This document shows positions 49,855 through 62,192 of a DNA stretch of 64,000 bases, piece by piece (within the stretch, counting starts at the first letter, position 1; the number at the start of each line of letters is the position of its first letter). Under the pieces are notes generated by a model. That model had not been told where the DNA came from and made no database searches. It saw only the letters and a list, made by a program, of their open reading frames with translations. The position numbers and the translations under genes are program-made. Source of the DNA: Sphingomonas sp. EC-HK361 (lineage in GTDB: Bacteria; Pseudomonadota; Alphaproteobacteria; Sphingomonadales; Sphingomonadaceae); the NCBI RefSeq assembly GCF_902498785.1, contig NZ_LR701493.1, forward strand, positions 357,459 to 421,458, read 5' to 3'.

Positions 49855-50465
49855 GCGGGCAGGATCTTTCGCGTCCGGAGATATTCGAGCACGGGAAGCA
49901 GCGGCATGCCGAGCACGGTGAACTGGCTGCCGTCGATCCGCGTGAACAGCTGTGCGCCCGGTCCCTCGATCCGGTAGCAGCCGACGCACCCTGCGATCGC
50001 CGGCCATTCGAGATCGAGATAGCGCGCGATGAACGCGTTCGAGAGCGGACGGACGTGCATCCGCGCGCGATCGACATGCCGCCAGACGGCACGACCGCCT
50101 TCCGCAACGACCGCAGCGCTCACGAGATCGTGATGACGCCCGCTCATCCGCCGCAGGTGGTCCGCTGCCTCCGCACGGTCGCGCGGCTTGTCGAGGATGC
50201 TGCCATCGTCAAGTACCGCAAGCGAATCCGAACCCAGCACCAGGGCGTCGGCGTGCAGCGCGGAAACCTTGATCGCCTTCAATTCCGCCAGCGCGTCGGC
50301 CAGATCGCGCGGGCGTGCGGAATCGAACGATGCCTTGACGCCAGCTTCATCGACGTGCCCGGGAACAGCCTGATACGCCACGCCCGCCGCGTCGAGCATC
50401 GCGCGGCGTGACGCGCTTTGCGACGCGAGGATCAGTCGAGAAGCGGCGGGATCGTTCAAGGTCAC
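49851..50465 (-). CDS. Maf-family nucleotide pyrophosphatase
   Basis: 204 aa from GTG 50465. SRLILASQSASRRAMLDAAG and LVLGSDSLAVLDD match Maf/YhdE/YceF-type NTP pyrophosphatases that act on non-canonical or modified nucleotides. GTG 50465 is preceded by GGGGAAG and overlaps the ppsR stop by four bases, which favours it over the longer frame. Confidence 0.92.
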   Translation of the reverse strand: MTLNDPAASRLILASQSASRRAMLDAAGVAYQAVPGHVDEAGVKASFDSARPRDLADALAELKAIKVSALHADALVLGSDSLAVLDDGSILDKPRDRAEAADHLRRMSGRHHDLVSAAVVAEGGRAVWRHVDRARMHVRPLSNAFIARYLDLEWPAIAGCVGCYRIEGPGAQLFTRIDGSQFTVLGMPLLPVLEYLRTRKILPA

Positions 50466-51295
50466 AAGTCTTCCCCGCGCGACGCGCCGCGACGTTCGTT
50501 GCACAGCGCGATGACCGCGGCGGCGGTTTCCTCGATCGAGCGCCTCGTCACATCGATGACCGGCCAGCCATGATCCGCGAACATCCGCCGCGCGAAGGCA
50601 ATCTCGCTCGCGACCGCCTCCTGGTTCACATAATCGGTTTCAGCTGCCTGATTGAGCGAGAGCAGCCGGTTGCGTCGGACCTGGATCAGCCGGTCCGCGC
50701 TCGTCGTCAGCCCGACGATCAGCGGATTGGCGAGGCTGTAGAGCGACGTCGGCGGCGGGCTTTCGACCACAATCGGGATGTTCGCGACCTTGTAACCGCG
50801 ATTGGCGAGGTAAATCGAGGTCGGCGTCTTCGATGACCGGCTGACCCCCGCGAGAACGATGTCCGCTTCCTCCCAGTCTTCGTGCGCGATGCCGTCGTCA
50901 TGCGCGATGGTGAACTGGATCGCATCGACCCGCGCGAAATAGGCGGCATCAAGGACGTGCTGGCGCCCGGGGCGAGCCTTAGCCTGCTGACCCAGCATCG
51001 ACGACAGCGCATCGTTGACGGAATCCAGCGGCGCGACCGTCGGCAGGCCCAGCGCTGCGCACCGTTGCTCCAGCGCACGTCGGGTCGACGAGTTGACCAA
51101 CGTGAAGATCACGAGTCCCGGATTCTGCGCGATTTCCTGCAGGATGCGATCCAGATGCGCCTCGGTGCGCACCATCGGCCAGAAATGCCGGACGGTCTCG
51201 ACATCGTCATATTGCGCGAGCGCCGCCTTTGCGATGTTCTCCAGCGTCTCGCCGGTCGAGTCCGACAGGAGGTGCAAATGGAGGCGCGTCGCCAT
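50462..51295 (-). CDS. ppsR: PEP synthase / pyruvate phosphate dikinase regulatory protein (DUF299)
   Basis: 277 aa from ATG 51295. HLLSDSTGETLENIAKAAL at the N-terminus and the P-loop-like GVSRSSKTPTSIYLANRGYKVANIPIV are the DUF299 signature. These bifunctional kinase/pyrophosphorylases switch PEP synthase or pyruvate phosphate dikinase off and on; which target applies here is not visible. It is the gene nearest to oriC on its left side and starts the ppsR-maf-aroE-coaE-dnaQ group. Confidence 0.93.
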   Translation of the reverse strand: MATRLHLHLLSDSTGETLENIAKAALAQYDDVETVRHFWPMVRTEAHLDRILQEIAQNPGLVIFTLVNSSTRRALEQRCAALGLPTVAPLDSVNDALSSMLGQQAKARPGRQHVLDAAYFARVDAIQFTIAHDDGIAHEDWEEADIVLAGVSRSSKTPTSIYLANRGYKVANIPIVVESPPPTSLYSLANPLIVGLTTSADRLIQVRRNRLLSLNQAAETDYVNQEAVASEIAFARRMFADHGWPVIDVTRRSIEETAAAVIALCNERRGASRGEDL

Positions 51296-51309
51296 CAGCG
51301 GGATCGATC

Positions 51310-51318
51310 TGTGGACAA
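51310..51318 (-). promoter_or_regulatory. DnaA box (near-consensus)
   Basis: TGTGGACAA on the plus strand, i.e. TTGTCCACA on the minus strand, one mismatch to TTATCCACA. Confidence 0.65.
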
Positions 51319-51388
51319 GATGGGGACGAGCGCTAGCGCAACTCGCAACCGCGGCCAAGCGCAGCGCCGCCGGTGGATCATCCGCGAT

Positions 51389-51397
51389 CTGTCCACA
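51389..51397 (+). promoter_or_regulatory. DnaA box (weak)
   Basis: CTGTCCACA, two mismatches to TTATCCACA. Confidence 0.5.
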
Positions 51398-51431
51398 AAG
51401 TCGTCAACGCCCACCGGGTTCCTGCACAGGC

Positions 51432-51440
51432 TGTGGATAA
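51432..51440 (-). promoter_or_regulatory. DnaA box (perfect consensus)
   Basis: TGTGGATAA on the plus strand is TTATCCACA on the minus strand, the exact consensus. Confidence 0.75.
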
Positions 51441-51559
51441 CGGGGATGCCCGACGCGAATCCCAAGGGAATCGTCAGCACGCATACGTCAAGCTGTTGGC
51501 ATTTCCGGGATGGCCGCATAATCCCGGTCACCAACGCGACTACTACCGCAACAGCTTCT

Positions 51560-51574
51560 TTAAGATTCTCTTCA
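51560..51574 (+). promoter_or_regulatory. CtrA-like binding motif at oriC right edge
   Basis: TTAA (51560-51563), seven bases, then TTCA (51571-51574): one mismatch to the CtrA box TTAA-N7-TTAA. In Caulobacter CtrA binds oriC and represses initiation. Single site, one mismatch, so tentative. Confidence 0.35.
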
Positions 51575-51594
51575 TCAGTAGAAGGACGCCCGCG

Positions 51595-52617
51595 CTGACC
51601 AAGCCCCTGCTCGCAACGCTGAAGGGTCAGCGCCAGTCGGTGCCGCCAATGTGGCTCATGCGGCAGGCGGGGCGCTATCTGCCCGAATATCGTGCTCTCA
51701 GGGCGGAGAAGGGCGGGTTTCTTTCGCTCGCGACCGACCCCGAAGCTGCGGCGGAAGTGACGCTTCAGCCGATCCGGCGCTTCGGATTCGACGGCGCGAT
51801 CCTGTTCAGCGATATCCTGATGGTGCCCTGGGCGCTTGGCCAGGACCTGAGTTTCGGGGTGGGAGAAGGCCCGCGACTGGAGCCGGCGCTCGTCGATCAT
51901 GCGCTGGTGGCGCTTCAGAGCGTCCCTGAGAGGCTAGAACCTGTCTATGCGACCGTCAGGACTGTCGCGGCGGCTTTGCCCCCCGAAACGACCTTTCTGG
52001 GCTTTGCCGGCTCCCCCTGGACCGTCGCGACCTATATGGTGGCCGGACAAGGCAGCCGCGATCAGGCCGAGACTCGGCGCTACGCCTATCGCGATCCCGG
52101 GGCGTTCGGCGCGATCGTCGATGCTATCACCCGGATGACGACCGACTATCTTTCCGCGCAGATCGAGGCGGGCGTGGAGGCGGTGCAGCTGTTCGACAGC
52201 TGGGCGGGGAGCCTCAGCCCGGCACAATTCGAACGCTGGGTCATCGCGCCGAACGCCGCGATCGTTGCGGGGGTAAAGGCGCGGCACCCGGAGGCGGTCG
52301 TCATCGGCTTTCCCAAGGGCGCCGGCGGGAAGCTCCCCGCCTATGCGCGCGAAACGGGGGTCGATGCGCTGGGGCTGGACGAGACGGTCGATCCCGAATG
52401 GGCGGCCGCCTCGATCCCGGCGGCGATGCCGGTGCAGGGCAATCTCGATCCGCTGGCGCTCATCACCGGCGGCGAAACGCTCGATGCCGCGATCGATCGT
52501 ATCCTTGCAGCCTTCGCCGACCGGCCGCACGTCTTCAATCTCGGCCACGGCATCCTTCAGGACACGCCCATCGCGCATGTCGAGCAACTGATCGCGCGGG
52601 TGAGGGGAACGGCATGA
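51595..52617 (+). CDS. hemE: Uroporphyrinogen decarboxylase (probable CTG start)
   Basis: 340 aa from CTG 51595. PPMWLMRQAGRYLPEYRALR at the N-terminus, GAILFSDILMVPWALG, GFAGSPWTVATYM and VQLFDSWAG are HemE signatures. It converts uroporphyrinogen III to coproporphyrinogen III in haem synthesis. No ATG, GTG or TTG lies at a family-like position: the next upstream candidates are TTG and GTG far inside oriC. GAAGGA (51581-51586) is 8 bases before CTG-ACC-AAG, which would give MTKPLLATLKGQ, the expected N-terminus. Its stop overlaps hemJ (ATGA). Confidence 0.95.
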   Translation: MTKPLLATLKGQRQSVPPMWLMRQAGRYLPEYRALRAEKGGFLSLATDPEAAAEVTLQPIRRFGFDGAILFSDILMVPWALGQDLSFGVGEGPRLEPALVDHALVALQSVPERLEPVYATVRTVAAALPPETTFLGFAGSPWTVATYMVAGQGSRDQAETRRYAYRDPGAFGAIVDAITRMTTDYLSAQIEAGVEAVQLFDSWAGSLSPAQFERWVIAPNAAIVAGVKARHPEAVVIGFPKGAGGKLPAYARETGVDALGLDETVDPEWAAASIPAAMPVQGNLDPLALITGGETLDAAIDRILAAFADRPHVFNLGHGILQDTPIAHVEQLIARVRGTA

Positions 52618-58162: not shown

Positions 58163-58178
58163 TGTTTCACGTGGAACG
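58163..58178. promoter_or_regulatory. parS-like centromere site (one mismatch)
   Basis: TGTTTCACGTGGAACG matches the parS form TGTTTCACGTGGAACA except for the last base. It sits in the mnmE-mnmG gap, about 2.4 kb left of parA. Confidence 0.75.
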
Positions 58179-59924: not shown

Positions 59925-60532
59925 CGGAAAGCGATGCCCGCGCGTGGATCGTATCGCGGTTCGGCGACCACAAGGCGGCGCTGCTCGAGCGCTTCGGCGA
60001 AATCGTCGGCGAAGAAAACGAGCGCCAGAATCTCGTTTCCAAAGCGACACTGGACTCGATCTGGACACGGCACTTGGTTGACTCGGCGCAGCTGGTCCCG
60101 TTGGCGCCGGAATGCGGAACGTGGCTTGATATCGGAACGGGCGGTGGATTTCCCGGTATGATCGTCGCGGCGCTTCGCGAACAGCCTGTGGTCTTGTGCG
60201 AGCCCCGCCGCCAACGTGCGCAGTTCCTGAAAACGTCCGCGGGCTTATTGGGGTTATCGAATGTCTCCGTCGAACAGCGGAAAGTCGCAGCGCTCTCGGG
60301 GTTTACGCCTGCGATAATCTCGGCACGCGCGGTCGCACCGGTAGATGTCCTTTTTCGCGATACCCTTCATTTGACCCATCCGGACACGCTTTTCGTGTTT
60401 CCGCGTGGTCGTTCGGGCACCGATGAGCTATCAGCAGCAAAGCGCAATTGGCGAGGAATGTTTCACGTGAAACAGAGCATCACGGACGCGGACTCGGTGA
60501 TCGTGACCGCGACGAAGGTCCGTCCCTCATGA
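59921..60532 (+). CDS. rsmG: 16S rRNA (guanine-527-N7)-methyltransferase
   Basis: 203 aa. SAM motif [14 protein letters not shown] and [13 protein letters not shown] match RsmG/GidB. It methylates G527 of 16S rRNA. GTG start overlaps the mnmG stop, and its stop overlaps the parA start. A perfect parS lies within its last codons, encoding MFHVKQ. Confidence 0.95.
60459..60474. promoter_or_regulatory. parS centromere site (perfect)
   Basis: TGTTTCACGTGAAACA is the exact 16-base palindromic parS consensus. It lies inside the rsmG coding sequence, 55 bases before the parA start. Confidence 0.93.
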
Positions 60533-61308
60533 TCCGCATCGCCGTCGCGAATCAGAAGGGAGGGGTTGGCAAGACAACCTCCGCGATCAATCTCGCGACG
60601 GCCCTCGCCGCCACTGGGCAGCGCGTCTTGCTGATCGACCTTGATCCACAGGGTAATGCCTCAACCGGACTGGGGATCGGCGCGAATCAAAGGCATCGCT
60701 CGAGTTACGACGTCCTGGTTGGCAATACGACGGTGTCGGACGCGGTCGTAAATACCCCGATCCCGCGCCTCGATGTGCTGCCGGCGACCGTCGATCTGTC
60801 TGGTGCAGAAATCGAACTGGTCGAGCTCGAAGCGCGAACGCACCGTCTGCACAAGGCGCTCGAAGTTGCGCCCGCGGATTGGGATATTGTCCTCATCGAT
60901 TGCCCGCCCTCGCTCGGGCTGTTGACGATGAACGCGATGGTCGCGGCCGATTCCTTGCTGGTGCCCTTGCAGTGCGAGTTTTTTGCGCTTGAAGGGCTCA
61001 GCCAGCTGTTGAGCACGGTCGAGCGGATAAGGGCGCGCTTCAACCCGTCCCTGTCGATCCTGGGTGTGGCGCTCACGATGTACGATCGGCGCAATCGTTT
61101 GACTGAACAAGTGTCGAAGGACGTTCGCGCCGTTTTGGGGCAGGTTGTGTTCGATACCGTCATCCCCCGCAATGTGCGGCTTTCGGAAGCGCCTAGCCAC
61201 GGCTTGCCGGCGCTGATCTACGATCATCGTTGTTCGGGATCGGAGGCGTATATCGCGCTGACGCGCGAGCTGCTCGCACGTCTGCCGCGTCAAAGGGAGG
61301 CTGCATGA
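60529..61308 (+). CDS. parA: Chromosome partitioning ATPase ParA (Soj)
   Basis: 259 aa from ATG 60529. The deviant Walker A motif KGGVGKTTSAINLA and DLDPQGNASTGLG are clear. No N-terminal HTH extension, as for chromosomal type Ib-like ParA. It drives origin segregation with ParB and parS. The ATG overlaps the rsmG stop and its own stop overlaps the parB start. Confidence 0.96.
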   Translation: MIRIAVANQKGGVGKTTSAINLATALAATGQRVLLIDLDPQGNASTGLGIGANQRHRSSYDVLVGNTTVSDAVVNTPIPRLDVLPATVDLSGAEIELVELEARTHRLHKALEVAPADWDIVLIDCPPSLGLLTMNAMVAADSLLVPLQCEFFALEGLSQLLSTVERIRARFNPSLSILGVALTMYDRRNRLTEQVSKDVRAVLGQVVFDTVIPRNVRLSEAPSHGLPALIYDHRCSGSEAYIALTRELLARLPRQREAA

Positions 61309-62192
61309 ACGAACCACAGATGAAGCGTGCGCGTCCAGGACTTGGCCGCGGGCTTAGTGCGCTGCTCGGCGATACGCTGGTCGATGACCTGGCGGGCGGC
61401 GGCGAGGGCGGGCGCAAGGCGGGCGTGCAGACGATGGCGGTAAGTGCGCTGTCGCCGCATCCGGGGCAGCCGCGACGACATTTCGATGAGGCCGCGCTCG
61501 ACGAACTCGCGGCGTCGATTCGTCAGAGGGGACTGATCCAGCCGATCGTCGTGCGACCCCATGGCCATGATTTTCAGATTGTCGCGGGCGAGCGACGCTG
61601 GCGCGCGGCGCAGCGTGCGCAGCTCCATGAAGTGCCTGTCGTCGTGCGCGATTTCACCGACGCGGAAACGCTGGAAGTCGCGCTCGTCGAGAATATCCAG
61701 CGGCAGGACCTGAATGCGATCGAGGAGGCGGAAGCCTATTCGCGGTTGATCGCGGAGTTCGACCACACGCAGGAAGCACTGGCGAAGATCGTCGACAAGT
61801 CGCGCAGCCATGTGACGAACCTGCTGCGGCTGCTCGACCTGCCCCGCCCGGTGCAGTCGCGGCTTGCTGCCGGCGACCTGTCGATGGGACATGCCCGCGC
61901 GCTGATCGGCGCGGCCGATCCCGAGGCGCTGGCGGAGCAGGTCGTCGCACGCGGTCTGTCCGTGCGCGAAACGGAGAAACTCGCGCGGGCAGCGAAGAAC
62001 AAGCCAGTGCGGGCAAAGATCAGGCAAGAGCGCAACGCCGATATCACGGCATTGGAGACGCAACTAGCGGATTTGCTTGGGCTTTCGGTATCGATCGCTC
62101 ATGCCGAGTCTGGAGGCACGCTGACGCTCAGCTATTCGACGCTCGATCAGCTCGACATGATCTGCCAGCGGCTCACTGGCGAGGCGATCTGA
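61305..62192 (+). CDS. parB: Chromosome partitioning protein ParB
   Basis: 295 aa. The N-terminus has GLGRGLSALLGD; the CTPase/ParB box is IVAGERRWRAAQ; an HTH region is seen in EEAEAYSRLIAEFDHTQEALAKIVDKSRSHVTNLLRLLDLP; a C-terminal dimerisation part follows. It binds parS and spreads as a CTP-dependent clamp. It ends the parA-parB unit, convergent with sixA. Confidence 0.96.
   Translation: MNEPQMKRARPGLGRGLSALLGDTLVDDLAGGGEGGRKAGVQTMAVSALSPHPGQPRRHFDEAALDELAASIRQRGLIQPIVVRPHGHDFQIVAGERRWRAAQRAQLHEVPVVVRDFTDAETLEVALVENIQRQDLNAIEEAEAYSRLIAEFDHTQEALAKIVDKSRSHVTNLLRLLDLPRPVQSRLAAGDLSMGHARALIGAADPEALAEQVVARGLSVRETEKLARAAKNKPVRAKIRQERNADITALETQLADLLGLSVSIAHAESGGTLTLSYSTLDQLDMICQRLTGEAI

Follow-up and report, generated by a model that had tools for sequence, protein, structure and literature searches.

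The window analysed here is a stretch of 64 kb of DNA, in which a gap of 299 bp at 51296-51594 corresponds exactly to the interval between ppsR on the reverse strand and hemE on the forward strand. A left/right switch in gene direction had been described by the first-pass annotation and was borne out around this gap. Pfam domains name the genes of the neighbourhood as ppsR, maf, aroE, coaE, an RNase_T exonuclease of the DnaQ type, hemE, hemJ, rho, mnmE, and mnmG. With the NCBIfam models, HemE and Rho scored above the cut-offs and ParB scored above the cut-off of the general parB_part model. RsmG remained just under its cut-off (98.5 vs 99.5), as did HemJ by a larger step (116.1 vs 138.05), and ParA was below the cut-offs of all its models. 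The neighbourhood of rho, mnmE, mnmG, rsmG, parA, and parB that had been noted earlier is confirmed for rho, mnmE, mnmG, and, with the general model, ParB, while rsmG and ParA are assignments below cut-off. The marker gene hemE had also been named correctly, and the second marker gene, ppsR, had been left unnamed. For ppsR, COG1806 and PF03618 denote one and the same family, with DUF299 as the link between them.

51296-51594, no strand: oriC candidate, the whole ppsR/hemE gap (299 bp)
50462-51295, reverse strand: ppsR, kinase/pyrophosphorylase (PF03618, 310.6 bits; COG1806)
51595-52617, forward strand: hemE, probable start codon CTG (TIGR01464, 376 bits)
60523-62192, forward strand: parA and parB (NCBIfam, ParA below the model cut-offs)

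The divergent arrangement of ppsR and hemE was found at 68 of 70 loci of the order, which were obtained from 78 HemE-positive genomes among 80 searched. One of the two exceptions (L217) starts at a contig end some 200 bp ahead of hemE, so that it does not represent a real absence of ppsR. In the class, 93 of 114 genomes searched were HemE-positive, and the pair was divergent at 27 of the 30 loci examined, which were the top HemE scorers and not a random draw. For an alignment of the gap itself, relatives were chosen by PpsR as the best 80 of at least 573 loci. One of them (L077), located on a short contig without a hemE match, was left out, and two others (L015 and L032) were kept despite partial hemE matches and long branches in the HemE tree, so that the alignment comprises 80 gaps, namely those of 79 relatives and that of the window. 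By record title, the 80 nearest PpsR loci belong to Sphingomonas, except for Hephaestia caeni, one Arthrobacter and one Microvirga (probably misnamed), and a few titles reading uncultured bacterium, Sphingomonadales, or Sphingomonadaceae. As many of these loci are near-copies, with 64 different unwinding segments among them, counts out of 80 do not stand for 80 independent events.

Five positions in the aligned gaps are conserved as DnaA boxes:

51310-51318, reverse strand: DnaA box 1, TTGTCCACA, 8 of 9 letters; at least 7 of 9 in all 80 gaps
51372-51380, reverse strand: DnaA box 2, TGATCCACC, 7 of 9; at least 7 of 9 in 68 of the 77 gaps with nine letters there
51389-51397, forward strand: DnaA box 3, CTGTCCACA, 7 of 9; at least 7 of 9 in 77 of 80 gaps
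51420-51428, forward strand: position of DnaA box 4, inverted partner of box 5, decayed in the window (6 of 9); at least 7 of 9 in 63 of 80 gaps, exact in 31
51432-51440, reverse strand: DnaA box 5, TTATCCACA, 9 of 9; at least 7 of 9 in 65 of 80 gaps, exact in 24

These are the top five among 508 position-and-strand tests across the 80 gaps; the next-best position reaches at least 7 of 9 letters in 33 of 78 gaps, and all others do so in less than 9 percent. The three DnaA-like boxes counted by the first-pass annotation, one of them perfect, are all real, including the 9/9 match at 51432, but the count was too low, with the positions at 51372-51380 and 51420-51428 having been missed. In the window as a whole, matches to the DnaA consensus with at least 7 of 9 letters occur at chance level (45 vs a shuffle mean of 47.3). 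The gap holds four of these 45, and nowhere else in the 64 kb does a stretch of 299 bp contain three or more. The pattern [CT]T[AG]TCCACA, picked after the boxes had been seen, has three matches in the window, all of them in the gap (boxes 1, 3, and 5). Boxes with at least 8 of 9 letters are strongly enriched over expectation in 79 Sphingomonas-type gaps (281 vs 3.0), in 68 gaps of the order (232 vs 6.8), and in 27 gaps of the class (69 vs 2.3). The strong box TGTGGAWAAC alone is not a marker of the origin, since only one of its 21 matches in four genomes lies there.

Besides the boxes, the gap contains a zone of low duplex stability and two conserved blocks:

51541-51580, no strand: putative duplex-unwinding element, the least stable 40 bp of the gap
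51332-51360, no strand: conserved block GCTAGCGCAACT ... GCCAAGC, possibly promoter parts of ppsR
51487-51501, no strand: conserved block GTCAAGCTGTTGGCA, possibly part of the hemE promoter or a weak protein site

The putative unwinding element ranks sixteenth among the 63961 40-bp stretches of the window, 15 being less stable, and the least stable stretch is found within 100 bp of hemE in all but two of the 80 gaps. The blocks were searched for in four Sphingomonas assemblies (G001 to G004). The pattern GTCAANCTGTTGGCA, derived from the block at 51487-51501, occurs once each in G001, G003, and G004, always at the origin, and is absent from G002. The pattern GCTAGCGYAACT-N9-13-CNAAGC, derived from the block at 51332-51360, occurs once each in G001, G002, and G003, again always at the origin, and is absent from G004. 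In a search of the 80 gaps, the 42 that matched the first pattern all had a spacing of 21 bp to a second block. Of the 51 that matched the second pattern, 45 had a spacing of 26 bp and the other 6 one of 27 bp. As a further DnaA box, GTCAAGCTGTTGGCA is not convincing: in registers 51491-51493 the window matches 3, 2, and 1 of 9 letters, and register 51494 reaches at least 7 of 9 in 5 of 80 gaps. The two blocks are perhaps promoter parts of ppsR and hemE; alternatively, they could be sites for an unknown origin protein.

Their resemblance to promoter parts with fixed spacing (21 bp; 26/27 bp) would agree with an explanation in which the gap is nothing but the divergent promoter region of ppsR and hemE, the boxes serve DnaA in its role as a transcription factor, and replication starts elsewhere. 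Yet five boxes, an unstable zone, a parS site close by, and conservation throughout the class exceed the needs of a promoter, and the origin of Caulobacter is located at the same place. The position of GC-skew minima also bears on this explanation and is treated below together with the parS sites.

60459-60474, no strand: exact parS, TGTTTCACGTGAAACA, near the end of rsmG and before parA (0 mismatches; none in shuffles)

This parS lies 9 kb from the gap. A second parS-like site with two mismatches is present at 58163-58178 between mnmE and mnmG. Six of eight related genomes contain parS-like sites, 15 in total, and all but one of these are no farther than 20 kb from hemE or the origin blocks; the exception, in G159, lies 0.36 Mb away. 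With one mismatch allowed, G001 and G141 lack parS-like sites. In G002, the single parS-like site is found 8 kb from hemE and away from the skew minimum. The parS-like sites tie the candidate origin to hemE independently of skew, and this includes G002.

A sign change of the GC skew at about 51.4 kb had been proposed as a check, and no sharp switch is present there. Skew in the window is about zero to slightly negative at 46-52 kb and mostly positive at 51-63 kb, and the cumulative minimum lies near 38-40 kb. Four single-contig genomes of the order were evaluated in ten 20-kb stretches around hemE each. The expected sign was found in 10 of 10 stretches in G121 and G172, in 9 of 10 in G159, and in 6 of 10 in G141, which gives no clear signal; identity of the fetched part of HemE to that of the window is 52, 76, 48, and 75 percent in G121, G172, G159, and G141, respectively. 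Skew thus switches at hemE in three of the four. In the four Sphingomonas assemblies, which are draft scaffolds or contigs whose order was taken as given, a switch at hemE is seen in G004, is local in G003, and fails in G002 and G001. In G004, four stretches before hemE are negative and nine after it, up to 2.9 Mb, are positive, with mixed signs further left. G003 shows negative skew in four stretches before hemE and positive skew in two after it, with a patchy pattern beyond. In G002 (contig C1), the best two-break fit puts the skew minimum near 2.1 Mb with hemE at 2.48 Mb, an offset of 0.35-0.4 Mb for which an origin-proximal inversion or an error in scaffolding would account. In G001, hemE lies inside a stretch of positive skew. 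GC skew has been described as insufficient in several alphaproteobacteria in a passage of PMC1914354. As the skew is mixed, it was not used as proof of the origin. The skew minima elsewhere in G002 and G001 would fit a gap that acts as a promoter region only, but the switch at this place in three of four single-contig genomes of the order and the parS-like site of G002, which stays 8 kb from hemE and not at the skew minimum, argue against it. Taken with the features of the gap, we regard this explanation as very improbable.

The feature set that characterizes the gap, namely a divergent hemE/COG1806 gap with a cluster of DnaA boxes, an easily melted AT-rich zone, and parABS close by, fits the hemE/COG1806 type of alphaproteobacterial oriC. 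G-boxes, as found in the Caulobacter origin Cori, are DnaA boxes in which the T-to-G change concerns letter 2. In contrast, boxes 1, 4, and 5 here mostly read TTATCCACA, although box 2 of the window does have a G at letter 2. Two G-boxes with the T-to-G change have been reported for Cori in passages of PMC3973325/PMC4468827, which also describe GANTC motifs in that origin and a parS within 8 kb. Both are further points of likeness to the gap, parS lying within about 10 kb in either case (9 kb in the window). That the Caulobacter origin lies at hemE, as the first-pass annotation had stated, is in print: a passage of PMC1914354 places Cori between hemE and COG1806 and, in 2007, called it the only experimentally identified alphaproteobacterial ori. 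As described in the same source, Cori of Caulobacter crescentus has features that recur in the gap, namely the flanking genes (hemE and COG1806/DUF299), several DnaA boxes, and an AT-rich zone of about 40 bp. Closer to the window, passages of PMC4741004/PMC4059872 place oriC close to hemE in Sphingopyxis, in most Sphingomonadaceae in DoriC, and in Novosphingobium PP1Y. The predictions for Sphingopyxis granuli TFA, Novosphingobium PP1Y, and other Sphingomonadaceae resemble the gap in their position at hemE and in their DnaA boxes, and that for Sphingopyxis additionally in conserved gene order and a putative unwinding element (PMC4741004/PMC4059872). The passages on these predictions are silent on GANTC in the unwinding element, on the two blocks, and on the hemE start codon, some of which the alignment in the supplement of PMC4741004 may show. 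In Rickettsia and Wolbachia, hemE is likewise a boundary gene and DnaA boxes are present in Wolbachia, but CtrA and IHF sites serve as criteria there and a distance of more than 600 kb separates hemE from COG1806 in Wolbachia (passages of PMC1914354).

The gap is very probably the chromosomal oriC of a Sphingomonas-like alphaproteobacterium and of the hemE/ppsR type. The earlier proposal of a likely oriC at this place is backed by position, DnaA boxes, the unstable zone, parS, and conservation over 80 gaps; direct observation covers the parts in the sequence, how well they are conserved, and the genes around them. Points against this reading include the skew in G002 and G001, the minimum near 40 kb in the window, the decay of box 4, and the lack of a parS-like site in G001 and G141. 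The decayed box 4, with 6 of 9 letters in the window, and the weak skew around the gap would also suit an ancestral origin that persists as a remnant after another origin has taken over in this strain. Such a replacement appears extremely unlikely, given that every box but this one has been preserved, as have the two conserved GANTC sites, the two blocks, and the unstable zone, and that parS has no mismatch.

For an active oriC in the gap, DnaA binding, melting, and initiation may be inferred from the arrangement of the parts. DnaA-ATP would bind to box 1 and the boxes at 51420-51440 and then fill the weaker boxes between them. The resulting DnaA filament would melt the unstable zone at 51541-51580 beside hemE, where the helicase would be loaded and from where two forks would depart in opposite directions. 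The nearby parS with ParAB would then move the new origins apart.

Two GANTC sites in the gap are fixed in nearly all relatives:

51457-51461, no strand: GAATC, a CcrM-type GANTC site (GANTC in 78 of 80 gaps)
51564-51568, no strand: GATTC (GANTC) within the putative unwinding element (GANTC in the aligned segment in 77 of 80 gaps)

The window has three GANTC sites, and the one at 51468 is common to just 3 of 80 gaps. For the melting segment, shuffling leads to an expectation of about 15 in place of the 77 segments with GANTC, and among 13 further pentamers built in the same way the best, TT.AA, reached 44 vs 21. Over whole gaps, observed and expected GANTC counts are 397 vs 94 in 79 Sphingomonas-type loci, 175 vs 95 in 68 loci of the order, and 85 vs 47 in 27 loci of the class. 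The least stable 50 bp contain GANTC in 75 of 79 Sphingomonas-type gaps (12 expected), 23 of 68 gaps of the order (6 expected), and 12 of 27 gaps of the class (3 expected). Within the order sample, this amounts to 18 of 28 (3.1 expected) at a HemE identity of at least 60 percent, and is weak below 60 percent, with 5 of 40 (2.7 expected). CcrM carries a RAMA domain, and a protein with this domain is encoded in all four Sphingomonas genomes and, among 14 control genomes, in Caulobacter alone, which is consistent with the presence of CcrM in Sphingomonas. For Caulobacter and its close kin, passages of PMC3973325/PMC4468827 already report several GANTC motifs in the origin, and GANTC sites in an origin are therefore not new. 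Literature passages on these origins contained no statement on GANTC in the Sphingomonas melting zone.

The gap differs from Cori in the narrow sense in that it has no conserved CtrA sites: TTAA-N7-TTAA is exact in 4 of 80 gaps and present within one mismatch in 7 of 80, so that control by CtrA in the style of Caulobacter is unsupported. The best match in the window has 7 of 8 letters. By eye, this CtrA-like match at 51562-51576, with its one mismatch, overlaps the GANTC site of the unwinding element, and the same applies to the exact match in L001; such overlaps may be due to chance in AT-rich DNA.

Methylation of the fixed GANTC sites by CcrM, one of them in the melting zone, might mark origins as old or newly copied and help to time the next round. 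A more specific idea, which we put forward tentatively and consider rather doubtful, is that melting is gated by methylation: with one GANTC site in the unwinding element and a second just past the DnaA boxes, full, hemi-, or no methylation would alter the ease of origin opening and set the timing of initiation, replacing the CtrA control of Caulobacter.

Towards hemE, the gap runs into a start region that is probably atypical:

51582-51586, forward strand: Shine-Dalgarno-like AAGGA of hemE, 8 nt before CTG (start region 51582-51597)

Judging from the aligned loci, CTG preceded by a Shine-Dalgarno-like AAGG(A) is probably the start codon of hemE in many Sphingomonas. No ATG, GTG, or TTG is present between the upstream in-frame stop and HemE residue 6 in 25 of 80 gaps (L009-L019, L023, L024, L035, L038, L039, L050, L057-L060, L064, L072, L074, and L080). 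The same test gave 0 of 81 for ppsR, 0 of 80 for dnaQ, 0 of 79 for hemJ, 1 of 81 for coaE, 2 of 81 for aroE, and 2 of 80 for rho; with maf it gave 5 of 24, and the test thus has an error of its own, at least where the N-terminus of the query is doubtful. CTG is the sole codon among ATG, GTG, TTG, and CTG with a Shine-Dalgarno-like match of at least four letters in 40 of 80 loci, including all 25 and the window, and AAGG stands 8 nt before CTG in 22 of these 40. By this rule, 22 of the remaining loci have a standard start only, 4 have both, and 14 have neither. On the HemE tree, the CTG label changes 4 times in 62 labelled rows vs 18.3 times after shuffling, with none of 500 shuffles as low; the tree is a quick one with many unsure forks, and near-copies add to this clustering. 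A locus that does not belong to the PpsR set, L248 (G172), likewise carries CTG and lacks a standard start downstream of its upstream stop. In the class sample, a hand count gave 27 of 30 loci with ATG, GTG, or TTG in the interval from -39 to +6 nt relative to the HemE core; L081 has none. Phrase searches of one literature collection found no report of a CTG/CUG start of hemE.

The origin is of the known hemE type, and some of its conserved details, such as GANTC in the melting zone and the hemE start codon, merit a test. The analysis narrows the putative chromosome origin of the Sphingomonas type to about 300 bp and provides a list of parts that are testable singly, namely five DnaA boxes, an unwinding element, two conserved blocks, and two fixed GANTC sites. 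If hemE does start with CTG, as is probable, a non-standard start codon would have been conserved here, which is unusual. As GANTC is kept in the melting zone (77 of 80) without conserved CtrA sites, a possible effect of CcrM on initiation would be testable in a simple origin.
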